Shown piece after piece: positions 32,014-54,529 of a stretch of 64,000 bases of DNA. This DNA comes from a virus. Position 1 is the first letter of the stretch. Each line of letters starts with the position of its first letter. The DNA is taken from positions 1-64,000 of IMG/VR virus record IMGVR_UViG_3300017987_000015; one strand, given 5' to 3'. The notes beneath the pieces are model-generated. The model saw nothing but the letters and a program-made list of their open reading frames with translations, did no database searches and had not been told where the DNA came from. A program made the position numbers and the translations under genes.

Positions 32014-32349
32014 ATGTCGGAATTGTATCAAGCTCTAGTGGATGGGCGGGTGACGCTGGATGGTCTTAAGGCGGAGGCCGACCCGGAGCCCAAGCAGCGG
32101 GGGAGCCAGAATCAGCAAGGGGCTCCCAAAAGTGGGGGCATGCGCAGGTTCCGCTTGAACCGCAAGCAGGACGAGAGCGGAGTTTCGGGGGAGGGCATTG
32201 TCGCCGAGGGAGTGGCGTTCTCCAATGGGCAGTGCGCCCTGCATTGGCTGGGGGATCTCTCCTCGATTGTTCTGTACGACGATATGCAGACGTTAGAATC
32301 GGTACACGGCCACGGCGGGAAAACCGAAGTGCTGTGGATGGACAATTAA
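32014..32349 (+). CDS. Small protein with N-terminal type B tag
   Basis: A 111-aa protein from ATG 32014. The N-terminus MSELYQALVDGRVTLDGLKA plus EAD aligns without gaps with the start of the protein at 51198 (ALASGWVTFDQLKAGGD). After a Gln/Gly linker comes a compact domain (IVAEGVAFSNGQCALHWLGD, SIVLYDDMQTLESVHGHGGK, TEVLWMDN). I know similar small domains from other phages but not their function. First of five small genes between terminase and holin. Confidence 0.65.
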   Translation: MSELYQALVDGRVTLDGLKAEADPEPKQRGSQNQQGAPKSGGMRRFRLNRKQDESGVSGEGIVAEGVAFSNGQCALHWLGDLSSIVLYDDMQTLESVHGHGGKTEVLWMDN

Positions 32350-32359
32350 GGAGTGTAGC

Positions 32360-32986
32360 ATGAAGATGAGTTCCAGAGTGGCGCAGAGGATAGCCGATCG
32401 AATCACGGACGGTCTGCTGGTATCCGGACGGGGGCGAGCAGCCAATGCCAAGGCCGGTGGCGATGACTTTACCGATTTCGTCCGGACTCTAACGAGAGAC
32501 CTGAGCCGGTTTCAGAGAGAGATATTTAGCACCGTTGACCGGGTGTGTAAAAGATTCGGTGTCGAGACCCCATCTGCTATCCGCGGCATAATTGTGGAGG
32601 ATCTCGGCGAGCTCGTTGCTTACGTTCAGGCAGCAGCGGCCCGGGGCTCTTATCGATCAATTGCCGGGTTGGCGACTAACCCGGTTGCTCCTATCAGATA
32701 TCTTGCTGATGACCCTGAGGAGCTGTTGGAGGAGATAGATGCAGCGACCACTTATCTGGAGAGACGGAGGGGTGAGCTGGTGAAGCTGAGTGGGGGTATC
32801 GCCCTGTCGAGCCGCACTTTCAAGCGCCTGTTGCATGTGACGGCCGGGGGGCGGGACGAGGCATCTAGGGAGCTGGCCAGGCATATAAAAGGGATATCGG
32901 AGGAGGTGGCCGCGGCATTCTCTGCAACCCATGAGGCTCTGGATAGGGTAGAGCGGGCGTTGTCCTCTCTGGAAAGGATTCGATGA
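32360..32986 (+). CDS. Helical protein with N-terminal type A tag and KAGGD
   Basis: A 208-aa protein. N-terminal tag RVAQRIADRITDGLLVSG, then KAGGD at residues 31-35, then long helices to the end (ALDRVERALSSLERIR). The same tag pattern (xxIxxRIxxGL and KAGGD) begins the protein at 33348. Probably a virion or prohead-associated helical protein; the tag might be a cleaved leader. No enzymatic motif. Confidence 0.65.
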   Translation: MKMSSRVAQRIADRITDGLLVSGRGRAANAKAGGDDFTDFVRTLTRDLSRFQREIFSTVDRVCKRFGVETPSAIRGIIVEDLGELVAYVQAAAARGSYRSIAGLATNPVAPIRYLADDPEELLEEIDAATTYLERRRGELVKLSGGIALSSRTFKRLLHVTAGGRDEASRELARHIKGISEEVAAAFSATHEALDRVERALSSLERIR

Positions 32987-33351
32987 TGAGTGGGGCACTA
33001 CAGCAATTTCTGAAGAGTGGGGGCGCGTTCGATGATCTGAAAGGCAACGATGGTTCCTCTCCCCCCGTTAAGGCAGGGGGAGATTTGGATTGGCTACAGG
33101 GCCGGCTGCAGGGTTCCCAGCGCGAATTGGGTGGGCTGATGCGCAGGGTACATAACCTGTCCGGGGATGTGGTCCAAGTCGGTCTGGACTTGGCCCCTGT
33201 CGGGCAGCGGGCAGAGCGGGCGGGATTCGACGATATCTTCAGTACAGCCGCCGATGCCTTCGACCACATCGCCGATGCCAGGGAGCTTCTGGACTCCGCC
33301 GAGAAGGCCCTCAAGCAGGCGGAGAGGGTGTTGAATAGGGGAACTAGATGA
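32983..33351 (+). CDS. Helical protein with type B tag and KAGGD
   Basis: A 122-aa protein overlapping the upstream stop as ATGA. Starts MMSGALQQFLKSGGAFDDLK, then a short linker and VKAGGD with KAGGD at residues 30-34. The rest is a helical bundle ending DSAEKALKQAERVLNRGTR, very like the ends of its neighbours. Unknown function; grouped with the tagged family. Confidence 0.65.
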   Translation: MMSGALQQFLKSGGAFDDLKGNDGSSPPVKAGGDLDWLQGRLQGSQRELGGLMRRVHNLSGDVVQVGLDLAPVGQRAERAGFDDIFSTAADAFDHIADARELLDSAEKALKQAERVLNRGTR

Positions 33352-33863
33352 GCAACCGACCAGTAGCACAAGAGATCGCCTCCCGTATTGCCGAGGGACT
33401 AGCGGGTGGGCCAATCAAGGCCGGCGGTGACGTTGCCAGATTAGAGAGGGAGCTGGAGACCGAGTTTGGTGCATTGGCCCGTCAGGTGAAGAGCCGGGTG
33501 GAGAATGTGTGTGGCCGGTTCGGCATTTCTTTGGGGCCCAAACTGCAGCGGTGGATAGACAGAGCATTCAGAGATTTGCATATTCGGATTTCAGACACCG
33601 TTGGGTATATGATGGAGGAAGCCGGCATGCTGTCCTTGCCCGACTCCCGGCTTCCGGCTGTCAAGTTCGGCTCCAATGAGAAGCTCCTCAAAGAGGCCTC
33701 CCAGCATCTGGAGCGGGCCTACCGGGTGGCGGACATGGCGTCCAAGTCACTCAGGCGGACTGATCCCTCTACTTCGGATCTAATCGATCGAGCTACTCGC
33801 AAGATGGCTGCTGCCAATGGAGAGATCCGGGGGGCGAAAGACCGGTTGGGAGGATACCCGTGA
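33348..33863 (+). CDS. Helical protein with type A tag and KAGGD
   Basis: A 171-aa protein whose ATG overlaps the upstream stop. Tag RPVAQEIASRIAEGLAGGPI followed by KAGGD at residues 24-28, then helices with LERELETEFGALARQVKSRV and QHLERAYRVADMASKSL. Related in layout to the protein at 32360. Unknown function; likely travels with the virion if the tag is a prohead-targeting leader. Confidence 0.65.
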   Translation: MSNRPVAQEIASRIAEGLAGGPIKAGGDVARLERELETEFGALARQVKSRVENVCGRFGISLGPKLQRWIDRAFRDLHIRISDTVGYMMEEAGMLSLPDSRLPAVKFGSNEKLLKEASQHLERAYRVADMASKSLRRTDPSTSDLIDRATRKMAAANGEIRGAKDRLGGYP

Positions 33864-34474
33864 GCACCTATCGGCACAGGCCGTATCGAGCAGCAACCAG
33901 CGTCCCACGCCTCGTCCGACAGGTGGACGATGCAATCAAGGAGATCGACGGCATCAAGAAGGAACTAGACACGGCCGGTACTCATTCGGCCAGGCTCAAA
34001 ACCAAATTGCTAGCACTGGCCAGAGATGCCGCCGAATTCGGGGCCGAAGAAATCGCTGTTGCTGCGCGGTTCCTGTCCAAAAATGTTTTGCGCGACATGA
34101 ACAGCGCAGATTCCAACCTGATCGAGGCCAAACACCAACTGGAGCAAGCGGCGCGCCGGCTGGAATCCCGTGAAGAGAAGGCATATCCGCATATCCCGTC
34201 ACCGGTCAAGGCAGGGCCTCTGGAGCCGTTCCCTACAGTGCTGAAGAACCATTGGAGATCGGTGTCCAGGATATTGAATGGGGATCTCAGCAGACAGCCC
34301 GGTGCTCTTAGGGCCAGAGCATCTGAGATAAAGAATGAGAACGGTGGGGCCCCCGATCGGCATACTGAGGCCCTATACCAGGCGGCCGACAAGGTGGACG
34401 ATGCCTTGAAGGCTCTGGATAATGCCCGGTCGGTTCTGGGCAGGGCCGGGACCATCCTGCAGCGGGCGGGATAG
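33860..34474 (+). CDS. Helical protein of the same cluster
   Basis: A 204-aa protein with a GTG start in a GTGA overlap. The N-terminal half is helical (QVDDAIKEIDGIKKELDTAG). A PSPVKAGPL segment sits mid-protein, and the C-terminal helices end KVDDALKALDNARSVLGRAG. The VKAG segment joins two helical halves, as though two units of this family were fused. Unknown function. Confidence 0.6.
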   Translation: MSTYRHRPYRAATSVPRLVRQVDDAIKEIDGIKKELDTAGTHSARLKTKLLALARDAAEFGAEEIAVAARFLSKNVLRDMNSADSNLIEAKHQLEQAARRLESREEKAYPHIPSPVKAGPLEPFPTVLKNHWRSVSRILNGDLSRQPGALRARASEIKNENGGAPDRHTEALYQAADKVDDALKALDNARSVLGRAGTILQRAG

Positions 34475-34563
34475 GAGGTAACGGGGGGGGAGATTTCTGG
34501 GTAAAAGAGGGCGGCGGCATCTGAGCTGGCACGATTTCAACCATATACTTGAGGAGAAAACCA

Positions 34564-35106
34564 ATGACTTCTGAAGGAATGAGTGGTACGCGCAACAAAA
34601 TGACGGGGGCCCTGATCGTTGGGGCCCTGCTTCCGGTTTTGCTTCCAGCGCTTCTGGTGATCCCGGTGGGCACGAGCCCAGAGGAAGTTTGGGAGGCCAT
34701 CCTGGCCTTCCTCACCATGGTCTGGACCTATGATGGGGTCAAGTGGATCGTGTTTCATGTCCTGCTGAACACCGTTGCAGCTTTGGCGGTTTCGATCTAC
34801 ACCGGTGAGTTCATCTTGGGGAAGTTCTTCGAGTTTCTGTATCGGAAACTCCTGCCCTACGTGTTGCTCTACTATGTGGCCAAGCTGGTGGGGATGGAAG
34901 TTGGCCAGGAGTGGATCGCCCCTGCTTGTTGGGCCATCATCGGGGCTACCCTGCTGGGCGATCTGGCCGACAATGCCCTGAAGCTGAACCTCCCATTACC
35001 AGAGAAGGTCAAGATGGCTCTGTCCTGGTTCGTGAAGATGGTCAAGGCCAATCCCAGCATGCAGGCCAGGGAGGCCTACCTCCGGCACTACAGGAGCAAG
35101 TTCTAG
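34564..35106 (+). CDS. Holin-like membrane protein
   Basis: A 180-aa protein from ATG 34564 after GAGGAGAAAACC. About four hydrophobic segments: GALLPVLLPALLVIPVG (near 20), WIVFHVLLNTVAALAVS (near 65), LLPYVLLYYVAKLVG (near 100) and WAIIGATLLGDLADNAL (near 128). A charged C-terminus follows. It stands directly before a coiled-coil membrane protein and a glycosidase-like gene, the usual order of a lysis cassette. Holin is therefore the best call, though not proven by motif. Confidence 0.65.
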   Translation: MTSEGMSGTRNKMTGALIVGALLPVLLPALLVIPVGTSPEEVWEAILAFLTMVWTYDGVKWIVFHVLLNTVAALAVSIYTGEFILGKFFEFLYRKLLPYVLLYYVAKLVGMEVGQEWIAPACWAIIGATLLGDLADNALKLNLPLPEKVKMALSWFVKMVKANPSMQAREAYLRHYRSKF

Positions 35107-35142
35107 AGCCGAAGCCGGCCAGATAGGAGCGCACACTGATGA

Positions 35143-35622
35143 ATGGGCCAAACGGTGAATAGCACTTTAACAACCATCTTGATATCTCTGATCTCGGGGA
35201 GCGCCCCGTCTATTGTCTTGTGGCTGCTTACCAGACGCAAATACGAGGCAGAAGTTGGCAAGCTGAAGGCGGAAACAGAGAAGCTGGAAAGCGACGCTGC
35301 AGCGCTACTGACGGAGGCTGCATCCGGATTGGTGGGGGATCTTCGCTCCGAGGTGGATGCGCTCAAAGAGGACAAGCGGGGCCTGGAGAAGCGGGTTTCC
35401 CAGTTGGAGGAATTGGGCGGTAGACAATCAGCCACCATTGCCAATCTGAAAATAGCTCTATCCAGGGCGGAGGGCAAGATCTATCAGTTGGAGTGTGAGA
35501 ACAGGACTCTGAGAGAGACCAATCACCGTTTGGCCCAGCATTTGGCAGATATGACGGGGGGAGACACAGGCCCCCTAGACATACTGGGAGAGGAGCCTTG
35601 TGAAGGCGAGGACGAGAGCTGA
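35143..35622 (+). CDS. Spanin-like membrane-anchored coiled-coil protein
   Basis: A 159-aa protein with one N-terminal membrane segment (TILISLISGSAPSIVLWLL), then a long charged coiled coil (about residues 35-135) and an acidic end. The topology is that of inner-membrane spanins (Rz type), which help break the outer membrane at lysis. The cassette context supports this. No separate Rz1-like lipoprotein was found inside or next to it, which weakens the call. Confidence 0.5.
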   Translation: MGQTVNSTLTTILISLISGSAPSIVLWLLTRRKYEAEVGKLKAETEKLESDAAALLTEAASGLVGDLRSEVDALKEDKRGLEKRVSQLEELGGRQSATIANLKIALSRAEGKIYQLECENRTLRETNHRLAQHLADMTGGDTGPLDILGEEPCEGEDES

Positions 35623-37787: not shown

Positions 37788-38055
37788 TGGGTCTTCTACC
37801 CCCCCACTGACCCCCCTGCCGGATAGTCAGGCGTGGGCGGCCCTGAGAGAGTGGAACCGCAGAGCCATTGCCGGGGCCCTGAGCGTTCCGGTGGAGGTCT
37901 TGTGGGGCAAGGACCTCTGGGATGCCATCAGGGATGGTTTGGATCGGGCAGACCGGGCAATCGACGATGTCTGCGAAAAGTGCAATATCGATAGGACAGA
38001 GATCGAGAAAGAGGCCCAGAAAGCAGACGCCGATGCCGGGGAGGATGGGGAATGA
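37759..38055 (+). CDS. Small helical acidic protein
   Basis: A 98-aa protein from ATG 37759 after GGGGGAAAAG. Ser/Thr/Pro-rich start, then helices (WAALREWNRRAIAGALSVPV) and an acidic C-terminus (AQKADADAGEDGE). No family recognised; lies in the lysis region. Confidence 0.55.
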   Translation: MASIQPTESNGSSTPPLTPLPDSQAWAALREWNRRAIAGALSVPVEVLWGKDLWDAIRDGLDRADRAIDDVCEKCNIDRTEIEKEAQKADADAGEDGE

Positions 38056-38438
38056 GCACTATGGCACTGGTTGACCGGATAGCCGAGAGGGTGGCGGCCG
38101 GCCTGAAGGGATACGGAAGTCAGTGGCGGGTATGCGATTACAAGGGGAAGCTGGCAATCACGCTTCCGGCAGCCCCAGACTGGAATGAGCCGTTTATGGT
38201 CAAGCCGTACCACGTCTCTAATATCCCGGTCAGTCAATATCGGGAGCTGCTAGATTGCCCGGTTCGTAACCTCCGTGGGAATGTGGGGACGGTTGCCCCG
38301 ATCGGTGGGAGACCCAAACGCCTGGATACTTCGGGGTGGAAAAGAATCGAGGAGAAGAAACGAGTACGCAAGCCCCCCAAGGGCAGGGATTACGACTATG
38401 TGTGGGAGCGGGGGGAATGGAGGAAAGAGTGGGTATAG
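38052..38438 (+). CDS. Small protein with type A tag
   Basis: A 128-aa protein, ATGA overlap with the upstream gene. The N-terminus STMALVDRIAERVAAGLKGY matches the RIxxxIxxGL tag seen at 32360, 33348, 46492 and 54134, but without KAGGD. The body is beta-rich with a basic C-terminus (KRIEEKKRVRKPPKGRDYDY). Function unknown. Confidence 0.6.
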   Translation: MSTMALVDRIAERVAAGLKGYGSQWRVCDYKGKLAITLPAAPDWNEPFMVKPYHVSNIPVSQYRELLDCPVRNLRGNVGTVAPIGGRPKRLDTSGWKRIEEKKRVRKPPKGRDYDYVWERGEWRKEWV

Positions 38439-42502: not shown

Positions 42503-45169
42503 GTGGCCAATAGACTGGCAAAGATAGCCGGCCAACTCGGCGCGGCTGTCGGCACCTTTCAAAAGAATAGGATGCAAGCTGTGCGGGGGAAACGGGCCCC
42601 GTTTCTGGCATCTATGGCTCAGCAGGGCAAATGGCGGGGGAGCGGCAGCGGATCAACCCGCCAAGCCCAGCGTCGGGCAGTCCAGAACAGTTGGGTGTTT
42701 GTGGCTTGCTCCTTCATATCTCGACAGGTCAGTGCTGCGGAATTCCAGGTATTCAAGCACCAGAAGGGGAAAAAGGACCCGGTGCGGGTGCCCGGCCATC
42801 CTCTGGAGGTTGTACTGCGCAGGCCCAACCCCTGGATGGGTAGCTCGTATATGTGGCAATACTCGGCCTGGTGGCAGCAACTGAATGGAAACTCCTATTG
42901 GTATTTGGGGCTGGACCGGGGAGGGGAGCTGGCAGAAATCTGGCCCATGCCGTCGGAGGATGTGGAACCGTTCCCAGGAGACGAAGAACGGTTTGTGGAC
43001 TTCTATCGTTACACGGTGGGGGGGCATGCCTATGATATCCCGGCCGAGTATGTGGTTCACACTAAGCTGGTTAACCCCTTCGATGTCTTTCGGGGGATGA
43101 GCCCCCTGAAAGCAGCCATTTTGCCATCGGACGTGGATCTGTTCATGTCGAGGTGGAATGCGGCATTTTTCGGTAGAGACAACACTATGCCCTCTGCCAT
43201 TATCAACATTTCGAGTGAGGACCCAGAACATCCTCTGGAAGATTCGGACATAGCGGCCCTGAAGGAGGATCTTAGGCAGGATTACCACAGCATCAAGCGC
43301 AAGGCCGCCATCGTCAGCGCGGCCAAGCTGGAGGTGGAGCTCCTGGGGTGGAATCCCAAGGATTTAGATTTTATCCAGGGCAGACAGTTTACCAGAGAGG
43401 AAATTTATGAGATATACGGCATTCCCCCTGGATTGCTGGACAAGAATGCCACCTATGCCAATAGCGCTAATGCTCGAATGGTCTTTAACAATTACACACT
43501 TTGGCCCCTGCTGGTTCTGACAGCGGAGCAGCTAACGGCGGAGCTCGTTTGGCCCTTATACGGGGAATCGTTCTCGGCCGGGTTCATCGATGTTAGGGAG
43601 ACCAATAGGGAAACAGAGCTTCAAGAATTGGGCTCAGCCGGCCCCTACCTAACAATCGACGAGATCCGGGCCAAATTCTGGAAATTGCCCCCTCTACCCG
43701 ATGGCCGGGGAGAGATCACTGCCGATGAATCACAGCGCGGGGATCTGGGCGGGGGCGGGGACAACCTGTTCGGCAGGGAACCGCCGGCGGGGCGGCCACC
43801 CGAAGGCCCCCCATCTGAGAGCCCACCGCCCAGCGATAAAGATCGGAGCCTGCCCCTTCGGGAGCCGCCAGCAGGGCAGCCCCTCCTCGAACCCGGGCCC
43901 GCAGATGAGCCCCCCAAGGGCAGCGCCAGCAATGAGCTGAGAGAGAGAATCGGCCGGCAGGATCTCCGGAATTGGAGAACCAAGGCAATTCGCAGTGTAT
44001 CTAATGGGGAACCACTGCCAGTGGGCTTTCGTAGCAAGTTCCTGCCGGGGGAAGCCAAGACTGCAGTCTCCTCTGGGCTAAGGGCGCTGCAGGCCGTGCG
44101 CGGGGCTGCCGCGGACGATGTGGTGTTGAATTCTGTGAAGGCCCTATTTCAGGAGGTCAAGGTAAAACACTACCCTTTTGATCGGGGGGGTGCAACGGCC
44201 CCCATGAAGGCAGGGAGCAGCCGCCCATGGGATAGATTGGAAAGAACCGTACGCAAGCAAGTCAAGGAGGCGTTGGAGAGACAGGTTGGGCGTATCCTGG
44301 ACCGAATTACAAAGGACGGGGAGGCCGTCGTAAATGATGAGGCCTTCTGGACCGAGCATCGACAATCTATCCTGGATTCTTTAATGAACAGCCTGTCCAG
44401 GATCACCGAATTGGGGGTTGATAAAGCCCGCAGTAAGGTGAGGAGGGATGTAAGGGATTCGATCGATTGGGACCTTGTCAATAAGAGAGCCGAGGATTGG
44501 GCCAGGCAGCATGCCGCCGATCTGGTGACCCAGGTCACAGAGACTACCAGGGAGGAAATGCGCAGGGCTGTGGGGGATTGGATCAACTACGGGGAAGCCC
44601 TCCCAGACCTACAGAGGCGCATAGAGGGCATCCTGAAGGAGGCCGAGGGGGACGCAAGAGAGGTTGCCGACAGGATCAAGAGGATGGTAGAGGAGCTGAA
44701 GGATAGGCTCCCAGATGAGACAGAAGAGGCTATCCTCCAGGCCATCCAGAGGGCGGGTGGTGATGTGGCCAGGTTGCGACGGGAATTGGGCAAAGTGGTA
44801 GGCAAGCTGGATGTGCCGTCATTGGTGGAGGTCCTAAAGCCCAGGGTAGCAGACCCAGCCAAGATCAAAGAACGGGCCCGCTTGATTGCGCAGACCGAAT
44901 CGACGGGGGCGTATGCCTCGGGGAATGCGGAGGCGTGGCAAGAGGCTGGAGCGAAACCGGCTGTATTCAAACCGCCGGCCCATCCGGGATGCCGCTGCTA
45001 TCTGCAACCAAAGAAGCTGGGGGATATTTGGGTGATGGTTTGGTACACTGCCCGTGATGAGCTGGTATGCGAAGCTCCGATCGATACGCCTTGGGGCAAG
45101 GTCAATGGGTGCAAAGCACTGCACCGAGTGGTGGTGTCTGAGGGGCCCAAATTGGGCCGAAGGGTGTGA
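42503..45169 (+). CDS. Portal protein fused to MuF-like head morphogenesis domain
   Basis: An 888-aa protein. Residues about 55-400 are an HK97-type portal (VQNSWVFVACSFISRQVSAA, VVLRRPNPWMGSSYMWQYSA, YEIYGIPPGLLDKNATYANS). A Pro/Gly-rich linker covers about 420-480. Residues about 600-850 are helical and end in the SPP1 gp7/Mu F signature: ARLIAQTESTGAYASGNAEA then HPGCRCYLQP near 826. In most phages these are two genes. GTG 42503 follows GGGGGAGACAGCC. A TAPMKAGSS site at the join may be a processing point. The portal forms the DNA entry ring; MuF proteins are minor head or ejected proteins. Confidence 0.9.
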   Translation: MANRLAKIAGQLGAAVGTFQKNRMQAVRGKRAPFLASMAQQGKWRGSGSGSTRQAQRRAVQNSWVFVACSFISRQVSAAEFQVFKHQKGKKDPVRVPGHPLEVVLRRPNPWMGSSYMWQYSAWWQQLNGNSYWYLGLDRGGELAEIWPMPSEDVEPFPGDEERFVDFYRYTVGGHAYDIPAEYVVHTKLVNPFDVFRGMSPLKAAILPSDVDLFMSRWNAAFFGRDNTMPSAIINISSEDPEHPLEDSDIAALKEDLRQDYHSIKRKAAIVSAAKLEVELLGWNPKDLDFIQGRQFTREEIYEIYGIPPGLLDKNATYANSANARMVFNNYTLWPLLVLTAEQLTAELVWPLYGESFSAGFIDVRETNRETELQELGSAGPYLTIDEIRAKFWKLPPLPDGRGEITADESQRGDLGGGGDNLFGREPPAGRPPEGPPSESPPPSDKDRSLPLREPPAGQPLLEPGPADEPPKGSASNELRERIGRQDLRNWRTKAIRSVSNGEPLPVGFRSKFLPGEAKTAVSSGLRALQAVRGAAADDVVLNSVKALFQEVKVKHYPFDRGGATAPMKAGSSRPWDRLERTVRKQVKEALERQVGRILDRITKDGEAVVNDEAFWTEHRQSILDSLMNSLSRITELGVDKARSKVRRDVRDSIDWDLVNKRAEDWARQHAADLVTQVTETTREEMRRAVGDWINYGEALPDLQRRIEGILKEAEGDAREVADRIKRMVEELKDRLPDETEEAILQAIQRAGGDVARLRRELGKVVGKLDVPSLVEVLKPRVADPAKIKERARLIAQTESTGAYASGNAEAWQEAGAKPAVFKPPAHPGCRCYLQPKKLGDIWVMVWYTARDELVCEAPIDTPWGKVNGCKALHRVVVSEGPKLGRRV

Positions 45170-45696
45170 TGCCTGACGCTTTCGAGATCCATGGCGTAGA
45201 CGAGCTGAAGCAGTTCGTGGACCATTTTGTCAGCACTGCGTATCTGACAGCAGCCAAGATGGGAATGGAACACGCCTTGATGTTGCTGCACGGCCGGCTC
45301 CCTGAGTATCCTCCGCCCCCAGAGAAGGGGGAAGCATCGAAGCACTGGACAGATAAGCAGCGGCGGTGGTTTTTCTGGGCCCTGAAGAAGGGCTTAATAG
45401 AGGCGGAATACAAACGGACTGGGACTCTGGGCAGGAAATTCACGACCGAGGTCCGGGTCGAGGGGGTGGACATCAGTGGGTCTTTTGGCAATGACTGCCC
45501 GTACGCCCCGTGGGTAGTGGGTCCGCCGGAATCCGAGCCCCTAACGTTTGGTGGGGTGATAATGTTTCAGGCCCCTATCCATCGGGGGAGATGGTGGCAA
45601 TTCTTCGACGAGGTGAAGAAGAACCTGCCGGACGCAGAGAAGGAGCTCGTATCTGTGGTGTGGACGGAGATCGGAAAAGCCTGGGAGACCGCGTGA
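45169..45696 (+). CDS. Head-tail or tail completion-type protein
   Basis: A 175-aa protein starting in an overlap with the portal stop. It has an N-terminal helical part (FVDHFVSTAYLTAAKMGMEH) and a later PYAPWVVGPPESEPL segment with Trp-rich IHRGRWWQFFDEVKKNLPDA. This is the layout of small morphogenesis proteins next to portal genes (HK97 gp10 or virion morphogenesis type). The call is from layout, not a firm motif. Confidence 0.5.
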   Translation: MPDAFEIHGVDELKQFVDHFVSTAYLTAAKMGMEHALMLLHGRLPEYPPPPEKGEASKHWTDKQRRWFFWALKKGLIEAEYKRTGTLGRKFTTEVRVEGVDISGSFGNDCPYAPWVVGPPESEPLTFGGVIMFQAPIHRGRWWQFFDEVKKNLPDAEKELVSVVWTEIGKAWETA

Positions 45697-46490
45697 TGGC
45701 AGGGATGGCGGCGATTCGACTCCCTGGGTCTTTAATAGCGGCCTGCAGGGCCTATGTCCGGGAAATAAAGAGAATAGAGCGCGAATTCGAGCGCTACTAC
45801 CCCAAATTGCCGGCGGGATCTCTCACGGTGATAGAGAGGGATCGACGCAGATTGCACGATCGGGTCATCGCTGAGTTGCGAAAGATCGGGGCCAGATCCC
45901 TGGAGAGAGCAGACGCTACTCTATTGGCATACGCCATAGTCGACGGCCAGTACACGGGGCAAGAAGACCCAAAAGAGTGGCTGAAGAGGGAGGGCTGGTT
46001 GGTGGATGCCCCACAGCATTCCAAGGCCGCATTATTGGAGGACATCATCGTTGACGAAGTTGCCCGATCTCTGAAAGCCCTGGGGATCCGAGTTGTCTCG
46101 GTCAAGGCCAGGGGCCAATTGTTTCGGGAGCTCCAGGCTTTGCGGGGGAGAATGGCCAGGGCGGCCCAACGGGTCTATGACCGGTGGCAGCCTGGAGACT
46201 ATGGCGGTGGCGGTGCCTGTGACGACATAGCGGGCGCGCTCCTCGATGTGGCCCTAGATGCTAGGAGTGCGGACGGGGGGCGGGTAGCCGGTTGGGCAGC
46301 AGATCACGCTTTCGCTCTGGTCTGGAGCGATGAATTGGGAGAGGCATGCAGAGTTGACATCTCACCCTACACCTACGAGACCGGTGGAGGTTACAATTGG
46401 GACAAGATCGAGGGGGTTCGATTCTCTTCAGGCGATGTCTATGTCGAGGACATCTCTGAGGATATCGAGCACATAAAAGGGGGGCATTGA
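45696..46490 (+). CDS. Protein with putative Cys-His hydrolase-like C-domain
   Basis: A 264-aa protein from ATG 45696. The N-terminal 170 residues are helical and basic. The C-terminal domain has GDYGGGGACDDIAGALLDVA, DHAFALVW and CRVDISPYTYETGGGYNW. The order Cys-His-Asp recalls papain-like or NlpC-like folds that are frequent in phage head-gene clusters. It may be a virion peptidoglycan-cutting or processing enzyme. Catalysis is unproven. Confidence 0.5.
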   Translation: MAGMAAIRLPGSLIAACRAYVREIKRIEREFERYYPKLPAGSLTVIERDRRRLHDRVIAELRKIGARSLERADATLLAYAIVDGQYTGQEDPKEWLKREGWLVDAPQHSKAALLEDIIVDEVARSLKALGIRVVSVKARGQLFRELQALRGRMARAAQRVYDRWQPGDYGGGGACDDIAGALLDVALDARSADGGRVAGWAADHAFALVWSDELGEACRVDISPYTYETGGGYNWDKIEGVRFSSGDVYVEDISEDIEHIKGGH

Positions 46491-46491
46491 G

Positions 46492-46857
46492 ATGGGAAGG
46501 AATCGAATGGCCGAAGGATTGGTCAACAGGATAACTGCCCAAATTGTTGGCGTACGCTACCCGGCCAGTGGGCTAAAGGCCGGATTTGGGTCTGTGGAGG
46601 GCCTAATCCAGGCGATGAAGCGGGCCGGCTGGAGAAACGTGACAGAATCTGGGGACGCGGTTATTGGAGAGGCCCGCACTTCTGCCGGCGAATTCAGCAT
46701 AGAGGCTGTGCAAGCGGTGAACAATGGCGGTGAACCCAACTTCTGGAGTGTGTTCGGCATCATCGATGACCTTGATGCTGAGGTTCACATGCGATACTCC
46801 TTGGGGCGGGTTCCCGGGCCCAGGGATGTGGAGAGAGTGATCGAGCGGGAGCTGTAG
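46492..46857 (+). CDS. Small protein with type A tag and LKAG
   Basis: A 121-aa protein; ATG 46507 (MAEGLVNRITAQIVG) with GGAAGGAATCGA upstream is a likely alternative start. The tag is followed by SGLKAGFGS. The rest is a mixed alpha/beta domain (LIQAMKRAGWRNVTESGDAV, FWSVFGIIDDLDAEVHMRYS). Just before the protease-capsid gene. Function unknown. Confidence 0.6.
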   Translation: MGRNRMAEGLVNRITAQIVGVRYPASGLKAGFGSVEGLIQAMKRAGWRNVTESGDAVIGEARTSAGEFSIEAVQAVNNGGEPNFWSVFGIIDDLDAEVHMRYSLGRVPGPRDVERVIEREL

Positions 46858-46869: not shown

Positions 46870-49686
46870 ATGCCATATGGTGTATTCAAAACCGGTTCCG
46901 GAAGTGACCCCTACTGTGTCTACAAGACTGATGGTGACGGGCACAGAATGGGGGAGGCATTCGGGTGTCACCCCTCAGAAGAAGAAGCAAGGGGGCAGAT
47001 TATGGCTATAGGGGCTAGATCCCATACCAGGGCGTCGGTTGGGGATTTTCTGTTATCGGTTAAGGCCAATGTGGGCGGCCTGATGGAGGGCCAAATCCAT
47101 CAGGTGTTTTCCGTCATCGCCGATCAGCTCTTGCAATTGGGCGTGATTGACAGAGACCAGCGTATAGAGCTGTCGTCAGCCATTGGGGATTCATTGGACA
47201 GCTTGCACAAGGTCATCGAGAAGCACGGCCTGGACAACACCGAACTGTCTGCTGAGGCAGTGGAAACCCTGATGGGCGGCCGGCTCCTGGGGGGTGGGGA
47301 GGATAAGGGAGCTCCTCCTCCAGCCGAACGACAGCCCCAGCCGTCAGCACAGCGTCCCCAAGAAGAGCAGGCGGCTAGGGCCCTGACGCTTGAGGAAACC
47401 CTGGTTTCATCGGGTAGCGGTCTTAAGGCTGTGGGCGATGGCTGGGTAGAGGGATATCTAGTAGTTTGGTCTCCCAACAAGCAGCGGGATCTGGGAGGCG
47501 ACTATTTCGATGACAAAACAGATCTCGGCTGGGAAGGGCGGGAAAGCAGAACCGCACTTTACCACCACGGCCTGGATCACACGATGGGCAAGAAATCTCT
47601 AGGAAGCGGCTGGGAATTTGTGCGGCGCGACGATGTGGGCTTGTGGGTTCGCACACAGTTGGACATGCGCGATCGTTACGAGAGTGCTATCTACAAACTG
47701 TGCGAGATGGGCAAGATGGGGCTCAGTAGTGGAACGGCATCGCACATGATAGTCCGTGAGGACGACGGCCGCATGGCTAGATGGCCGATCGTTGAGGGCA
47801 GCTTTACCCCTGCCCCGATGGAACCACGAACGATGGTCTCCCCTCTGGGTGAAATCGCGGGTAGAGCGGTTCCGTTTAAGTCTTTGCTGTCAGAACTCGA
47901 AGGCGGTGTTATAGGGGCACCTAACGCTAGAGGGCCCGAGAACACTCGCGGGGGGATGGGCAATGACGATTGGATTAGTTGGTACCTTGGCATACTGGAT
48001 CGGGAGGTAAAAGCGATGACAGTAGATGAATTGATTGGGACCCTCAGAGAGTTGGTCCCGGAACTGAACGATGACCAGCTACAGCAGATCCAGTCTATCC
48101 TCCAGTTGGGAATGGGCGAGACCCCAGTGGGGGGAGACGAGGAAATGCGAGCGTGGACGGGCGGCGGCTACATCGACCCATGGAAAGCCGCTGCTGAGCT
48201 GGACACTATCCTGGACACTATCCAGAGCGTGGTTCAGCTCGATGACGACAAGCTGGCCAAGATCACTTCTGTTCTTCAGTTGGCCCTGCAGGGAGCGGCC
48301 GAGGAGGCTGGAGAAGGGAGCTATATGGAGGACTACGAGGACGAGGTCGTGGCTCCCATGGCTGAAGAGGTGGTCGCTGGTGAGGAGGTAACAGAGGAGG
48401 AAATTCGATCGATCGTCAGTGATGCGGTGTATGGAGCGATGGGCAGCGGCCCGAGAGTGAGACCCCGCCGTCGGGCAGTCTCTCGTCCCCCGTATGCTTT
48501 CACTCCGTCCGCACGCGTTGGAGGTAACGATATGTCAGCAGGCAAAGCGGCCCAGGTTCTTCGCTATGGGCATCCGGATGCGGCGGTCAAGGCCATCGCC
48601 ACAGACTTGTACGGCGGCAATTACGAAGCGCTGCGGTATAAACAGCACAAGGCCTTCGGGGCATTCTTGAGACACGGTGAGCGGGCCCTGAGTGATGACT
48701 ACCAGCGGGCTATGAAGACCGTTGTACTCACTCCTACCCAGTTGAAGGCATTCGCCTTGAGTGGGGTCGATGTTTCGTCCTTCAAGACCGAGATGTCGGA
48801 AGTCGTGGACGATCTGGGTGGGTGGTTGGCCCCAGAGGATTTCCGCACGGACATGATCGAGCGGCTGCCCGGCTTGACAGTGGTTCGGCGTCGGGCGGAT
48901 GTGCTGCAGACTGGGTCAGACATGATGTCCCGCGTCAAGGTGACCGGTGGGGGTGATCGATATACCTCCGCAGTCCGGGTGACTTGGGTTGGAGATGTGC
49001 CTTCCGAGGGAGACGCTGATACCAATCCCACCTTCGGCGTTGAGCGCACGCCGATCCACATTGCCAAAGCAGTTGTGTACGTCCCCATGTCCTTGCTGGA
49101 GGATACGCCCTTCCCGCTGGTGGAGAAGATCAACCAGTGGGTTTCTGAGGCGTATGCCCTCGACGAGGATGAGCAGTTTCTGGTGGGCGATGGCATCGCC
49201 AAGCCCGAGGGCATCCTGCCCGACGAGGGCAACGGCAACGATCTGGAAAGCGTGGCCTCTGGGGATGCCGACACTGTCACGTTCGACGGATTGGTAGGCA
49301 TGCGCTATGGGATTGGCCGCCAGTATCGGCAAGGTGCATGCTGGACCATGAACGACTCTACCGCCAGCGTGATCGCCAAACTGAAAGATGGAGACGGGCG
49401 GTACCTGTGGCAAACCAGCAATCAGGAAGGCGAGCCGGACCGCATGCTGGGCTACCCGGTGGAAACCTCCGAGGCCATGCCAGATGTAGCGGCCGGTGCC
49501 TTCCCCGTTACCTTTGGGAATTACAACCAGGGCTACCAGATTGCCGATCGTATCGGCATGAGCGTGGTTCGGGATGATGTCACCAAGGCGGAGGAGGATC
49601 TGGTCAAATTCATCTTCCGGCGTCGGCTCGGTGGTCAGCTCAAGGCTGAGTGGGCCTTCTGCGTGATGGAGATTTCGGCCAGCTAG
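46870..49686 (+). CDS. Prohead protease-scaffold-major capsid single frame
   Basis: 938 codons without a stop. Residues 1-55 have a small CVYKTDGDGHRMGEAFGCHP domain seen in phage head proteins. Residues about 190-320 are an S78-type prohead protease: VEGYLVVWSP, YHHGLDH (His), MGLSSGT (Ser) and WPIVEGSFTPAPMEP (Glu). Residues about 380-550 are helical, acidic and scaffold-like. Residues 555-938 are an HK97-fold major capsid protein. Two strong internal ribosome sites with in-frame ATGs (48016, 48532) suggest that scaffold-capsid and capsid are also made alone. The fusion would place one protease per long chain inside the prohead. Confidence 0.88.
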   Translation: MPYGVFKTGSGSDPYCVYKTDGDGHRMGEAFGCHPSEEEARGQIMAIGARSHTRASVGDFLLSVKANVGGLMEGQIHQVFSVIADQLLQLGVIDRDQRIELSSAIGDSLDSLHKVIEKHGLDNTELSAEAVETLMGGRLLGGGEDKGAPPPAERQPQPSAQRPQEEQAARALTLEETLVSSGSGLKAVGDGWVEGYLVVWSPNKQRDLGGDYFDDKTDLGWEGRESRTALYHHGLDHTMGKKSLGSGWEFVRRDDVGLWVRTQLDMRDRYESAIYKLCEMGKMGLSSGTASHMIVREDDGRMARWPIVEGSFTPAPMEPRTMVSPLGEIAGRAVPFKSLLSELEGGVIGAPNARGPENTRGGMGNDDWISWYLGILDREVKAMTVDELIGTLRELVPELNDDQLQQIQSILQLGMGETPVGGDEEMRAWTGGGYIDPWKAAAELDTILDTIQSVVQLDDDKLAKITSVLQLALQGAAEEAGEGSYMEDYEDEVVAPMAEEVVAGEEVTEEEIRSIVSDAVYGAMGSGPRVRPRRRAVSRPPYAFTPSARVGGNDMSAGKAAQVLRYGHPDAAVKAIATDLYGGNYEALRYKQHKAFGAFLRHGERALSDDYQRAMKTVVLTPTQLKAFALSGVDVSSFKTEMSEVVDDLGGWLAPEDFRTDMIERLPGLTVVRRRADVLQTGSDMMSRVKVTGGGDRYTSAVRVTWVGDVPSEGDADTNPTFGVERTPIHIAKAVVYVPMSLLEDTPFPLVEKINQWVSEAYALDEDEQFLVGDGIAKPEGILPDEGNGNDLESVASGDADTVTFDGLVGMRYGIGRQYRQGACWTMNDSTASVIAKLKDGDGRYLWQTSNQEGEPDRMLGYPVETSEAMPDVAAGAFPVTFGNYNQGYQIADRIGMSVVRDDVTKAEEDLVKFIFRRRLGGQLKAEWAFCVMEISAS
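48002..48018 (+). promoter_or_regulatory. Internal ribosome site and ATG for scaffold-capsid
   Basis: GGGAGGTAAAAGCG stands before in-frame ATG 48016, which begins MTVDELIGTLRELVPELNDD, the scaffold-like part. The site is as strong as those of separate genes. It suggests a nested product of 556 codons starting here. Confidence 0.6.
48532..49686 (+). CDS. Major capsid protein from internal start
   Basis: ATG 48532 is in frame with the long gene and is preceded by GGAGGTAACGAT, an excellent ribosome site. The product of 384 aa begins MSAGKAAQVLRYGHPDAAVK and covers the HK97-fold capsid. Landmarks are an N-terminal arm, VVDDLGGWLAPEDFRTDMIE, FLVGDGIAKPEGILPDEGNG, and a C-terminal FRRRLGGQLKAEWAF. 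An independent start would supply the high copy number capsids need, as with nested scaffold genes in lambda. VKAIATDL near residue 19 could be a maturation cut. The hairpin at 49701 follows. Confidence 0.75.
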   Translation: MSAGKAAQVLRYGHPDAAVKAIATDLYGGNYEALRYKQHKAFGAFLRHGERALSDDYQRAMKTVVLTPTQLKAFALSGVDVSSFKTEMSEVVDDLGGWLAPEDFRTDMIERLPGLTVVRRRADVLQTGSDMMSRVKVTGGGDRYTSAVRVTWVGDVPSEGDADTNPTFGVERTPIHIAKAVVYVPMSLLEDTPFPLVEKINQWVSEAYALDEDEQFLVGDGIAKPEGILPDEGNGNDLESVASGDADTVTFDGLVGMRYGIGRQYRQGACWTMNDSTASVIAKLKDGDGRYLWQTSNQEGEPDRMLGYPVETSEAMPDVAAGAFPVTFGNYNQGYQIADRIGMSVVRDDVTKAEEDLVKFIFRRRLGGQLKAEWAFCVMEISAS

Positions 49687-50259: not shown

Positions 50260-50274
50260 TCCTGGAGAACAACC

Positions 50275-51126
50275 ATGAATCGTGCACGGCTTATGCTAGA
50301 GGCCAGCAGGATGCCCGCACATATGAAGGCTGTAACCAGGGAGGGCCCCTTTCTCAGAAGGGTTACTAGAACCAGGGGTATCCTCAGTGCTCAGATTCGC
50401 GGGGATCTGGTAGATGTGGCTTTCGATCCCCGCGAGATAAGGATCGGGACAGTTGACAATCTCCTGTTTAACGCGGCGGGGGACCAGGGCCTGTCTTCTG
50501 AACGCGTATCCGGGCCGAAGAGATCTGCTAGAGCATATCAGCTAACTGCCACGTACCGGGTAGAAGCTGGGGGGAAGGCGATCAATGAGGATCTGACACT
50601 CCACGATGCCCGCACTCTGTCCAGCGGAACTATCGCCACCTTGACCGGGCTGAACAAATACAGCGATCTGGATAAAGTGCAGGGGGCATTCGTGGATTTT
50701 GTGGAGGAAAGTGGGCCCGGGAAATTTCCCAATTGGCAAGCGGCGTGGCGGGCTTTCGAGGTGGAATTAAAGCGTGGCAAAGCCGGTAGAGCGCTCAGCA
50801 GAGAGTTGAGCCAACCGATGCGCCTGAAAGCCTCGCGGCTTCTGCTATCTGACTCGGCCCGGATTTCCCCGCTGAAGTATGAGATCACCCCAGAGATCGA
50901 GGGGTGGATGCAAGATGCTGTGGACGATCTGGACGGCATTTGCAGAACGTTTGCTGCCCTGGTTAGGGAGTTGACCCACTTACAATCTGCAGCCCCCATA
51001 TCCGCCCGAAGAATCGGGCATTACGAAGGATTGGCCGAGGCGGTGCAGAAGGCCGCCGAAGCCATCAGGCTTCTTCGCAGGGAGCAGCGCCATATGGGGG
51101 AGGACCTGCAGACATACGGCAAATGA
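50275..51126 (+). CDS. Unknown structural-region protein
   Basis: A 283-aa protein from ATG 50275 after CTGGAGAACAACC. Beta-rich N-terminal half (SAQIRGDLVDVAFDPREIRI, SARAYQLTATYRVEAGGKAI) and a helical C-terminal half ending in a charged coiled coil. An AHMKAVTREG segment near residue 16 may be a cut site of the KA type. No family recognised; in the head-tail gene order it may be a connector or internal protein. Confidence 0.55.
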   Translation: MNRARLMLEASRMPAHMKAVTREGPFLRRVTRTRGILSAQIRGDLVDVAFDPREIRIGTVDNLLFNAAGDQGLSSERVSGPKRSARAYQLTATYRVEAGGKAINEDLTLHDARTLSSGTIATLTGLNKYSDLDKVQGAFVDFVEESGPGKFPNWQAAWRAFEVELKRGKAGRALSRELSQPMRLKASRLLLSDSARISPLKYEITPEIEGWMQDAVDDLDGICRTFAALVRELTHLQSAAPISARRIGHYEGLAEAVQKAAEAIRLLRREQRHMGEDLQTYGK

Positions 51127-51197
51127 TGCGCCCGATCCACCAGAGGTCTCTCGGAGGATTGCCGCAGTCGTGTTATGGGAGATGGGAGACACAATTA

Positions 51198-51503
51198 ATG
51201 CCCAATTTGGACTACGCTTTAGCATCCGGATGGGTGACATTTGACCAGCTAAAGGCAGGCGGAGACGTCAATGTCAAGCCTCAGATCGATAGATTGGTTA
51301 GGGCAGAATACCAGAAGTACAATGCCCTGCTTGCCGATATGCAGATCGCCCGTGGGGCCCGGCTCAGGAAGTTGGAAAGGCTGCAGGGGCAATGGTCCAG
51401 ACACATGGGTGAGGTGGACAAGATCGGGAGGAAGGAAAGGCCGGAGTATGTGGATCTGCGGATGCTGCAGGGCTTGATCAGAGGTCGTCCCCCAACCGCA
51501 TAG
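51198..51503 (+). CDS. Small protein with type B tag and KAGGD
   Basis: A 101-aa protein from ATG 51198 after GGGAGACACAATTA. The start MPNLDYALASGWVTFDQLKA plus GGD puts KAGGD at residues 19-23, the same positions as KAEAD in the protein at 32014. The remainder is one basic helical segment. Strong support for a shared leader module. Function unknown. Confidence 0.65.
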   Translation: MPNLDYALASGWVTFDQLKAGGDVNVKPQIDRLVRAEYQKYNALLADMQIARGARLRKLERLQGQWSRHMGEVDKIGRKERPEYVDLRMLQGLIRGRPPTA

Positions 51504-51522
51504 AGAAACAAGGAGGGAAACG

Positions 51523-51978
51523 GTGGCAAAAGGGACTAAGGTTGCGGTGTTGGTTCCGGGAAAATACAACGACCAGCATGGCTGCGCGATGAAAAGGAAT
51601 GTGGGAGATGTTTTCTCCACCCGGCACTGGTATGCCCTCAAGCTGGAGGAGCGGGGATTGGTGGAGGTCCAGCGGGTCGGGGAGAGCGGGAAATCGCCCT
51701 CAGCTCTGGCGACTGCATTGGCGGAAAGGAAAACCGAAGAGCCGGAACCGGAGCCGGAGGAGACTACAGAGGAGGACCCGGGGCCCAGGGGTTTGTCGTC
51801 TGAGCTATTGGAGGACGCCGGCCTTTCGCCCAAATTGCTGTATGAGGTGATGCAGCGGTGGTCTACTCTAGGAGATGTGGCTGATGCCACAGACAGCCGG
51901 CTGTGCAGCATTCGTGGGATTGGCCGGGCCACAGTATCTGATATCCGTCAGTTCTTGGAGGAGCAGGGGATAGAATAA
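51523..51978 (+). CDS. Protein with C-terminal helix-hairpin-helix domain
   Basis: A 151-aa protein from GTG 51523 after AAGGAGGGAAACG. An N-terminal beta domain (TKVAVLVPGKYNDQHGCAMK) is followed by a Glu/Pro linker and a C-terminal helical part with LCSIRGIGRATVSDIRQFLE, which is a helix-hairpin-helix-type DNA-binding or protein-interaction motif. The same pairing of a small beta domain and HhH is seen near head-tail connectors in phages. Role unproven. Confidence 0.55.
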   Translation: MAKGTKVAVLVPGKYNDQHGCAMKRNVGDVFSTRHWYALKLEERGLVEVQRVGESGKSPSALATALAERKTEEPEPEPEETTEEDPGPRGLSSELLEDAGLSPKLLYEVMQRWSTLGDVADATDSRLCSIRGIGRATVSDIRQFLEEQGIE

Positions 51979-51979
51979 G

Positions 51980-52906
51980 GTGCACTACGCAACCCTATAT
52001 CAAGTCAGGCAATATCTGAAGCTTGCGGATTCGGAAACTGGGGACGACGAACTGCTGAAGCGGTTTGTTCGTGAAGCTGTCAACGCAATCGACGAACGAT
52101 GCCGGCGCAGATTCGATATTCGGTATGACACGCTAAGCTTTGACTATCCCCTGCCCAGACGGGACCGGGTAGGGGTCTATAGGGTCGATGACTTTGTGAC
52201 CCAAATGACTGCGGTGGCGGATTGGACCAAGCAGCTATTGCGCCTGGACAAAGACCTGCTGGAGGCCACGACCATCACCAATGGCGACGATACTTCCGTA
52301 TCGTTGGATGATGTGGTTTTCAAACCGCCCAATTCCTACCCCAAGATCTCGGTGGAGATCAAGCCCGGATCTGGAGAGAGATGGGAGTATGAGGATGACG
52401 GCAATAGGCTGCAGGTGATCCAAATTGCAGGGTATTGGGGGTACCATACCAGATATGGGGATGCCTGGAGCGATTCCCTGGATTCGGTGCAGGATAATCC
52501 ATTGACCGATAGCGCCACATCATTGACCGTGAGTGACGTCGGTGGCACAGACAGTGACGCACTCTCCCCCAGGTTCCAGGTAGGGCAGATGCTGAAGATC
52601 GAGGATGAGTTTTTATTTGTCGTGGCCAGGAATACTACCACAGATGTTATGACGGTGGTTAGAGGGTACAACGGAACCACAGCGGCACAGCACGCCAAGA
52701 GCACGACGGTCTACGTATACCGCCCCATGGATAAAATAGTGCGGGCTTGTTCCCGATTAGTGGTGTGGGCCTACCGCCAGAAGGACACAGACGCCTTCGA
52801 TAAAGCCACCATTTTGGGCTCCGGTGTGGCCATCACCCCGTCCACGATGCCGGCTGACGTCCGAGAGCTGTTGCCCAAGCCCAAACCGCCGAGACTAAAC
52901 GATTAG
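51980..52906 (+). CDS. Head-tail connector (gp6-like) protein
   Basis: A 308-aa protein. Residues 1-60 have YQVRQYLKLADSETGDDELL and FVREAVNAIDERCRRRFDIR, the helical signature of gp6-type adaptors that bind below the portal. The rest is beta-rich with an inserted knob (VGQMLKIEDEFLFVVARNTT, VVRGYNGTTAAQHAKSTTVY), and the C-terminal helix is again adaptor-like. The GTG start at 51980 has GGGGATAGAATAAG upstream. Confidence 0.7.
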   Translation: MHYATLYQVRQYLKLADSETGDDELLKRFVREAVNAIDERCRRRFDIRYDTLSFDYPLPRRDRVGVYRVDDFVTQMTAVADWTKQLLRLDKDLLEATTITNGDDTSVSLDDVVFKPPNSYPKISVEIKPGSGERWEYEDDGNRLQVIQIAGYWGYHTRYGDAWSDSLDSVQDNPLTDSATSLTVSDVGGTDSDALSPRFQVGQMLKIEDEFLFVVARNTTTDVMTVVRGYNGTTAAQHAKSTTVYVYRPMDKIVRACSRLVVWAYRQKDTDAFDKATILGSGVAITPSTMPADVRELLPKPKPPRLND

Positions 52907-52916
52907 GGGGAGAATA

Positions 52917-54116
52917 ATGGCCAAAGAGCCGTGGCAAAGACAAGCGGGAACCATAACCCGGAATCTCGTTAGGACTCTTCGTGATTGCAGGAAGGACATA
53001 GAGGCAGCTATCAAGCTCATTCCAGGCAGCCGCAGTAAGGACACTATGTCACAGATACTGGCCGAGGGAGATTTGCATCTGGCTAGGTGTATCAGAAGCA
53101 TCGAGGATGTGGCCTATGTCATGGCCAGTGGGCCCTACACTCCTGTTCGATCAGCCGGGCAGGGGGGGCTGTTGGGGGCTCTGAACTCGGGGGAGGTCTC
53201 GTTTGATAGCCTGAAATACGAACGTGACGGGCCCACTATGACCCACTGGCAGGATTCAGCGGGCAATCGTATCACGATCGGGGATGTGGTCTCCTTTAGA
53301 CACCACGGCAAGGATTTCCAAGGCGAGATCATCGACTCTGGGCATTACAACCCGATAGTGCGGGTTGGTCTGACTGCTTACGAGGTCTCTCCCAGGGCAT
53401 TGGCCTTGAAGAGGCGGGGTGTGGGAAAGGCCATCCCTGGGAAAGCGAGAATCAGGCCGGGCGGCAGGGTTCGGGTACTGCAGGGCAGGCACGCCGGCGA
53501 ATCCGGACGGGTAACGGCGGTAATGTCCGGCGGCATTCCCGAGGCGAATGTGGAGTTAGACAGCGGTCTGCGCAGGACATTCCGGCTCGATGATCTGACT
53601 ACCGATATGGAGGCCTCACTGGGTAAGGCTGCCCCCGTGGGATCGATGAGGATCAAACCGGGCCAACCGGTGGTGATAAAGCGAGGAAGGTTTGCCGGCC
53701 AACCGGGCAGGGTTGTGGCAGTGTGGAGAAGGACCGGGGATGCCACAGTACGCCTGCACAGGGGAGGACAGGAGATCTTCTGTTTTGACAATCTGGACAC
53801 CAACGTGGCCCCGCAGAGATCCTTGAGCACGGGGAGAATGTCCAGGGAGCAAGCCAGAGGAACAGCCGAAGAGCTGCTAGGACAATATCGGTGGCGGTTG
53901 GGCCACATCGATCGAGCAGGGAGGGGTTGGGCCGTCACCTCGGAGGGGGTGGGTATAGGCAGGGGGGTAGTTGTCTCGATATCCTTCCAGATGGATGACA
54001 CCGGAGAGCCCAGCAGCCCGATAACTATTTATGGGTTCGATGCCAACGGCAACGAAATGAGCGGCACGTCGCATTCCATGCTAAGCCCAAGCCGGGCGGC
54101 CAAGCAGGTAAGGTAG
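52917..54116 (+). CDS. Protein with repeated KOW/SH3-like domains
   Basis: A 399-aa protein. Residues 1-80 are helical. Residues about 83-105 repeat the type B tag internally (GALNSGEVSFDSLKYERDG). An SH3-like segment (ITIGDVVSFRHHGKDFQGEI) follows near 118. Then come two KOW-like units, RIRPGGRVRVLQGRHAGESG near 178 and RIKPGQPVVIKRGRFAGQPG near 244, each followed by a similar beta segment ending in a DDL or DNL. KOW domains usually bind RNA polymerase or ribosomes. Here they lie in a structural operon and may simply be small beta-barrel adaptors. Function unknown. Confidence 0.6.
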   Translation: MAKEPWQRQAGTITRNLVRTLRDCRKDIEAAIKLIPGSRSKDTMSQILAEGDLHLARCIRSIEDVAYVMASGPYTPVRSAGQGGLLGALNSGEVSFDSLKYERDGPTMTHWQDSAGNRITIGDVVSFRHHGKDFQGEIIDSGHYNPIVRVGLTAYEVSPRALALKRRGVGKAIPGKARIRPGGRVRVLQGRHAGESGRVTAVMSGGIPEANVELDSGLRRTFRLDDLTTDMEASLGKAAPVGSMRIKPGQPVVIKRGRFAGQPGRVVAVWRRTGDATVRLHRGGQEIFCFDNLDTNVAPQRSLSTGRMSREQARGTAEELLGQYRWRLGHIDRAGRGWAVTSEGVGIGRGVVVSISFQMDDTGEPSSPITIYGFDANGNEMSGTSHSMLSPSRAAKQVR

Positions 54117-54133
54117 AAATCGGGAGATTGCGA

Positions 54134-54529
54134 ATGGCGATGCGGCAGAGTGCCCTTATAGACAGAATCTCGGGGGGCATAATCAAGTCCTTAACCGGAA
54201 AAGAGTGGGACACTCCCAAGAATTATGGCCCGGAAGCGGAAGCCGCCAAGCGGGCGATCCGTGAGGGATGGAACAGCCCAGCCCGATTCTCTGTGAAGGA
54301 GCAGAGATGGAAGCCGAGGATGAGCACTAGTCAGGACGTCGCCATGAAGCTCATGGCAGAAGCTTGGGCCCACCATCGATCCGGTGGGCTTCGAGAGATA
54401 CCTCTGCGGCCAATTAACAGATCCACGCTTAGAAGTCTGCAATCTAGAGGATGGGTGGATAGCAGACTGCCAAAGCTGACGGCTCTGGGACTGGCCGTAG
54501 TGCGGGAATTCTGGCCGGCATACTTGTGA
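54134..54529 (+). CDS. Small protein with type A tag
   Basis: A 131-aa protein from ATG 54134 after GGGAGATTGCGA. The N-terminus RQSALIDRISGGIIKSLTGK matches the RIxxxIxxxL tag. The C-terminal part, LREIPLRPINRSTLRSLQSR and LTALGLAVVREFW, looks like a winged helix. Function unknown. Confidence 0.55.
   Translation: MAMRQSALIDRISGGIIKSLTGKEWDTPKNYGPEAEAAKRAIREGWNSPARFSVKEQRWKPRMSTSQDVAMKLMAEAWAHHRSGGLREIPLRPINRSTLRSLQSRGWVDSRLPKLTALGLAVVREFWPAYL

Follow-up and report, generated by a model that had tools for sequence, protein, structure and literature searches.

How does a virus come to place the same short sequences at the start of late proteins whose bodies largely differ? This question is raised by the window analysed here, a stretch of 64,000 nucleotides from an uncultured tailed phage (positions 1 to 64,000 of the 68,964-base IMG/VR record IMGVR_UViG_3300017987_000015), in which two kinds of short leader, type A and type B, recur on small late proteins; genes are named below by the position of their first base. 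The reading that we favour, with a probability of about three in four, is that these leaders are exchangeable capsid-targeting propeptides, cut after a lysine by the HK97-type prohead protease of the same virus. The early half of the window is leftward; the late half, rightward from about 28 kb, holds the terminase (30372), the portal (42503), the protease-capsid fusion (46870) and the tail genes, including the tape measure (58768).

Residue 19 is the lysine of the type B leader (ALxxGxVxFDxLK) at both 51198 and 32014; another copy lies within 52917 (lysine codon 53214), and 32983 matches loosely, with PPVKAGGD as a second motif behind the match. Type A, which is amphipathic (combined z 5.8), is found at 32360, 33348, 38052, 46492 and 54134. 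In leave-one-out profile tests 32360 and 38052 score clearly, 33348 and 54134 reach a moderate level that 0.5% of controls also attain, and 46492 is weak (8%). Both families described by the initial annotation are borne out at the positions it gave, with 46492 counted as a weak type A and 32983 as a loose type B. No gene start on the early strand of the window exceeds the 99.9th percentile of controls in a leader-profile scan, and the leaders are restricted to the late cluster. The record encodes the pentapeptide KAGGD in exactly four places, always on the + (late) strand and near the N-terminus of a small late protein, its lysine lying at residue 31 (32360), 30 (32983), 24 (33348) and 19 (51198). 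That this exceeds chance, as had been claimed, was confirmed by residue shuffles of the 96 late + strand open reading frames (n = 300), which yielded KAGGD 0.02 times on average and at most twice. The four copies vary at third codon positions (AAGGCCGGTGGCGAT, AAGGCAGGGGGAGAT, AAGGCCGGCGGTGAC and AAGGCAGGCGGAGAC), indicating that it is the protein, and not the DNA, that is conserved. Chance probably accounts for a VKAGG near 65 kb, within a fibre-like protein (64668). An exact DNA pattern for FDxLKAGGD returned 10 stretches in IMG/VR against about 7 expected by our own estimate, and in the three read in frame the motif sits in unrelated proteins.

Searching with the capsid fusion as a single protein brought up no relatives among viral or genome contigs, and alignments were needed; the L-numbers used here denote the related IMG/VR viruses found by alignment-based searches. 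Identity to the window in the capsid region is 63-69% for L113, 54-63% for L107 and L108, 57% for L115, 56% for L121 and 53% for L025, and L128 and L129 were found through the 51980 protein (46-47%). No host genome carrying a relative was found among the bacterial and archaeal genomes searched. A profile search with the leaders, already suggested by the initial annotation and run on these related viruses, revealed type A and type B leaders on other proteins in L107, L108 and L113. When the type B profile is trained on the window alone, the L107 and L108 leaders score above all 3,820 control gene starts; in the reverse test, with training on L107 and L108, 51198 and the internal leader of 52917 lie above all controls and 32014 lies near the top, exceeded by 0.05% of them. 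Type A is more divergent: with the window-trained profile, 3732 and 5207 of L107 and 3428 of L113 rank near the top within their contigs, and leave-one-out holds for most members. In L025, L115, L121, L128 and L129, whose contigs are partial, no type A or B leaders were detected. These leaderless sisters share the same capsid junction, which fits leaders having been added onto an existing protease specificity.

If the leaders are removed, by what enzyme, and at which bond? In the 170 residues upstream of the scaffold, which in the window share the reading frame of the capsid protein, TIGR01543 (proheadase_HK97) is matched in six of eight family members (best 1.4e-4) and PF04586 (Peptidase_S78) likewise in six of eight (best 9e-6), and H64 and S117-S118-G119 are invariant in the eight sequences. 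Immediately ahead of the HK97 fold, six close viruses have a capsid junction of the pattern hydrophobic-Lys-(Ala, Ser or Thr)-(Asp or Glu)-Met with an invariant lysine (FKT, IKS, LKA, IKT, LKT and VKT), and L121 (LKA) and L128 and L129 (LKT) also show hydrophobic-Lys-(Ala or Thr)-Asp at this place. The mature chain of HK97 starts at residue 104, after Lys103, and K103/S104 (a slash marks an actual or predicted cut) aligns with the junction lysine. Most leaders likewise place a lysine within residues 16-19, preceded by a hydrophobic residue and followed by Ala, Ser, Thr or Gly, a count that is not independent, since the leader profile was partly built on the same feature. The HK97 alignment makes a cut after the lysine (K/A, K/S or K/T) likely, in place of the cut after the KA of KAGGD proposed in the initial annotation; K-A/G may be an alternative. 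For the capsid protein, LKA/FALSG (48742) was the first idea and was dropped for FK/TEMS, whose lysine is invariant and fits the HK97 spacing. The LKAVGD at 47422 belongs to the protease domain as its first strand and was not counted as a cut site.

The residues leading up to the capsid cut have a suggestive likeness to type B, as illustrated by ESGRTVAEIK/A in L026 beside KSGRLTMDQLK/V in L107. The linker of the portal, which is fused to a minor-head-like domain, contains a hydrophobic-Lys/Ala motif in all three leader-bearing viruses in which the portal is seen (MK/AG in the window, VK/AP in L108 and LK/AP in L113), and it is absent in L025. Because the minor-head domain is a separate gene in L121 and L129, a cut in the linker of the fusion would restore two products. 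A rival reading is that the leaders serve as docking tags, recruiting the proteins to prohead or connector and kept on them, with the K-A motif as a linker only. Such tags would suit the well-formed amphipathic helix of type A, the extra Pro- and Gly-rich linker that precedes KAGGD in several window members and the location of leader genes among head and connector genes; yet they leave aside that leader ends match the predicted capsid maturation site in the same viruses (in L107 the string LKAD, read as LK/AD, is common to the capsid junction and two leaders) and that the motif recurs in the portal linker. We regard docking tags as unlikely.

The bodies behind the leaders speak to whether the leader is a unit of its own. 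Those of 32360, 32983 and 33348 are paralogues, sharing 28-31% identity at E about 1e-8 in single comparisons, so that the earlier description of the bodies as unrelated needs correcting for these three; other bodies clearly differ and include a KOW protein. The type-B-like 32983 and the type A 33348 have homologous bodies, with homology beginning at P-(V or I)-KAGGD; the 51198 body, behind a type B leader, is 35% identical to L107:8680, whose start is MKALFRISIK/AD; and the C-terminal domain of 45693 is 46% identical over 113 residues to L108:13476, which bears a type A leader. Homologous bodies with different leaders indicate that leader and body are separate units. The paralogy of the three neighbouring proteins would be expected if the leaders were the N-terminal part, within the mature fold, of one family diverging after duplication with a conserved start, but the same leader types stand on clearly different bodies (the KOW protein, helical proteins and others without match) and homologous bodies bear different leaders, and this explanation seems to us improbable. 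Homologues in L107 or L108 exist for 13 of 13 core head and tail genes (29-64% identity) as against one of nine leader genes, and several conserved genes are no longer than leader genes. The same gaps between conserved genes are filled by leader genes in different viruses, and the hypervariable cargo thus occupies fixed positions among conserved genes. This cargo is small and diverse; the KOW domain of 52917 is the only assignment, the other scanned bodies matching no Pfam or PHROG family.

A different destination, be it the tail tube, a membrane or the host nucleoid, with the likeness to the capsid junction being convergent, is very doubtful. It could be accommodated by the basic amphipathic helices in L107 and L108, which could bind membranes or nucleic acid, and by the proximity of some leader genes to tail genes, but there is no hydrophobic signal peptide, the leaders occur only in late head and connector slots, and the invariant Lys-small motif would be left unexplained. 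Chance, or a likeness at the DNA level through shared regulatory or recombination sequence, might be invoked for elements so short and is already refuted by the shuffle tests, the profiles that carry across viruses and the third codon positions that differ between copies.

Several observations count against cleavable propeptides. The window's own protease matches TIGR01543 weakly (E 0.013, below the curated cut-off), profile comparison (hhalign) of the protease with HK97 gp4 and others gave no match, and its AlphaFold model has a predicted local distance difference test (pLDDT) score of 36, there being too little alignment depth. Type B matches the end of the capsid propeptide to a degree that is only suggestive, being reached by 0.5-5% of controls in six of seven cases and by 27% in one, among sequences that are not independent, and type A leaders do not resemble that end (combined p 0.38). 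In several type A members of the window the helix does not end in LK, and the K-A motif lies 6-12 residues further on. In addition, some leaders lie inside longer frames (52917; 5207, 5694 and 8383 of L107; L108:16591), mostly with a ribosome-binding site and an ATG, so that the true N-termini are uncertain; these could be internal starts or polyprotein joints.

On balance, the capsid-targeting propeptides removed by the protease of 46870, which the initial annotation had proposed, remain the best-supported reading, given the leaders in three relatives, their exchange between homologous bodies, and the motif that capsid junction and portal linker have in common with them. From these observations we infer prohead targeting, cleavage, ejection and a function in the new host. 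A leader would be an element of 16-19 residues ending in hydrophobic-Lys, either an amphipathic helix (type A) or a sequence like the capsid propeptide end (type B), that carries its cargo into the growing prohead during head assembly. Then the HK97-type protease, encoded ahead of the capsid protein in the same fusion, would cut the leader after the lysine, before Ala, Ser, Thr or Gly, as it would cut the capsid protein at FK/T and probably the portal-minor-head fusion at MK/AG. The freed cargo would stay in the head and probably be ejected with the DNA, a further step suggested by analogy with T4 and P1. Its role in the new host would most simply be to counter defences or to take over the cell early, in the manner of T4 IPI* and P1 Dar. 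More tentatively, the leaders may amount to a plug-in export code, in which either of them, one copying the capsid propeptide end, brings any protein into an HK97-type prohead, where the capsid's own protease trims that protein at the identical Lys-small site; relatives would load unrelated cargo in the same slots, giving each virion its own effector set, possibly including a KOW-domain transcription factor.

Table. Leader-bearing genes, candidate cut sites and associated head genes (a slash marks the predicted cut)
Feature	Position	Strand	Remarks
Small late protein	32014..32349	+	Type B leader MSELYQALVDGRVTLDGLK/AEAD; leader 32014-32070; K residue 19
Helical protein	32360..32986	+	Type A leader SRVAQRIADRITDGLL, then AAK/AGGD; KAGGD 32450-32464; paralogue of 33348
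Helical protein	32983..33351	+	Loose type B leader (GALQQFLKSGGAFDDLK) and PPVK/AGGD (33070-33084); body homologous to 33348 from KAGGD on
Helical protein	33348..33863	+	Type A leader, then PIK/AGGD (33417-33431)
Helical protein without N-terminal leader	33860..34474	+	Candidate cut site PSPVK/AG (K codon 34208), internal, with a helical half on either side
Small late protein	38052..38438	+	Type A leader MALVDRIAERVAAGLK/GY; L108:4641 has the same GLKGY end
Portal fused to minor-head-like domain	42503..45169	+	Phage_portal; MK/AG in linker (K codon 44207)
Late protein	45693..46490	+	C-terminal domain 46080-46487 homologous to type-A-tagged L108 body; internal VDEVARSLK/A upstream of domain
Small late protein	46492..46857	+	Weak type A helix, then SGLK/AGFG
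Single frame for HK97-type prohead protease (at about 47377-47886), scaffold region and major capsid protein	46870..49686	+	Phage_capsid E 8e-58; predicted maturation site FK/TEMSEVV, K codon 48784
Small late protein	51198..51503	+	Type B leader MPNLDYALASGWVTFDQLK/AGGD; KAGGD 51252-51266; body homologous to L107:8680, which bears another leader
Helical domain, internal type B leader, KOW-domain body	52917..54116	+	Leader GGLLGALNSGEVSFDSLK/Y (53163-53216); KOW E 2.7e-8
Small late protein	54134..54529	+	Type A leader SALIDRISGGIIK/SLTG
Small helical protein, basic N-terminus	57554..57850	+	SPIK/AGR (K codon 57614); tentative third leader kind; compare L107:8680 MKALFRISIK/AD
Type A leaders in relatives	L107: 3463, 3732, 5207, 5694, 6361, 7095; L108: 4641, 9494, 13476, 16591, 18760; L113: 3428
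Type B leaders in relatives	L107: 8383; L108: 13977, 14669

Other features of these viruses were observed alongside. The prohead protease carries at its N-terminus a 2'-5' RNA ligase (LigT-like) 2H phosphoesterase domain in L025 (8543-9031, E 7e-12) and L115 (450-1199, 1e-11), the latter also matching Acb1, directed against the cyclic oligonucleotide-based antiphage signalling system (anti-CBASS; 3e-5); fused to the protease, this domain would enter the head and is a possible packaged counter-defence enzyme. In the portal-minor-head fusion of L113 (246-3431), an intein splicing domain (Pfam E 1.2e-10) lies near the Cys-rich end of the minor-head domain, and the minor-head domain of the window has, relative to L025, an insertion of about 80 residues (about 44640-44880) that holds RAGGDVARLRREL, resembling KAGGDVARLEREL of 33348. 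The orphan domain at 46080-46487 has an alpha plus beta model (pLDDT 75) without significant structural match, and a Cys, a His and an Asp are conserved in the two sequences; it is a possible new enzyme, for which the three residues give a papain-like hint that we do not claim. Small helical-hairpin proteins with very basic N-termini are encoded in the window (57554-58122), in L110 and in L115 (3964-5017), several with a K-A near residues 10-30, and these N-termini are perhaps a third leader kind or DNA-binding arms. Among the connector genes, 55234-56673 combines a sulfotransferase-like N-terminal and a glycosyltransferase-like C-terminal part and is conserved in L107 and L108.

Cleavable capsid-targeting leaders are already well described in T4 and giant phages, and one packaging signal in P1. 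If the reading proposed here is correct, the principle extends to HK97-type heads, which are far more common; the leaders would let sequence alone reveal which late proteins of no known function are head cargo, and the orphan cargo would provide candidate counter-defence or takeover factors. The predicted rule, hydrophobic-Lys/small, can be checked with one protease and a few peptides. The closest parallel for the enzyme is HK97 gp4 and gp5: there, as here, a protease of the HK97 family precedes a capsid protein that has the HK97 fold and an N-terminal scaffold, and the cut, like the one predicted here, has Lys in P1 and a small residue in P1'. The known substrates of the HK97 protease are the capsid precursor and the protease itself, and we know of no family of tagged cargo in HK97.

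For the cargo, the parallels lie elsewhere. In T4, a short conserved N-terminal leader, the capsid-targeting sequence (CTS), is present on small, highly diverse internal proteins, for which prohead targeting and removal by the prohead protease have been proposed (PMC3012670). The present leaders are likewise short, conserved and N-terminal on diverse small proteins, and the T4 model of the initial annotation survives as a functional likeness only: they have no sequence likeness to the CTS, their ends are hydrophobic-Lys/small with no recurring Glu-ending motif, the protease matches TIGR01543 and Peptidase_S78 and not the family of gp21, the T4 enzyme that cuts the CTS, and there are two leader families, some members of which lie inside longer frames. 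In the P1 Dar system, with the scaffold in the capsid-protein N-terminus, an N-terminal signal packages defence proteins, with propeptide cleavage; DarB has a packaging signal of 30 residues and DarA is cleaved by Pro (PMC9024508, PMC12810830). Dar N-termini lack a consensus and belong to few proteins, some very large, whereas here many small proteins bear recognisable, swappable leaders. In the phiKZ-like giant phage SPN3US, a single prohead protease, gp245, cuts the portal, the capsid protein and several packaged proteins, some with propeptides of 20-24 residues (PMC10052503). The phiKZ-like system differs in its AxE motif, its giant myovirus setting and its mostly long propeptides, but it shares with the mechanism proposed here the use of one protease for portal, capsid protein and cargo.

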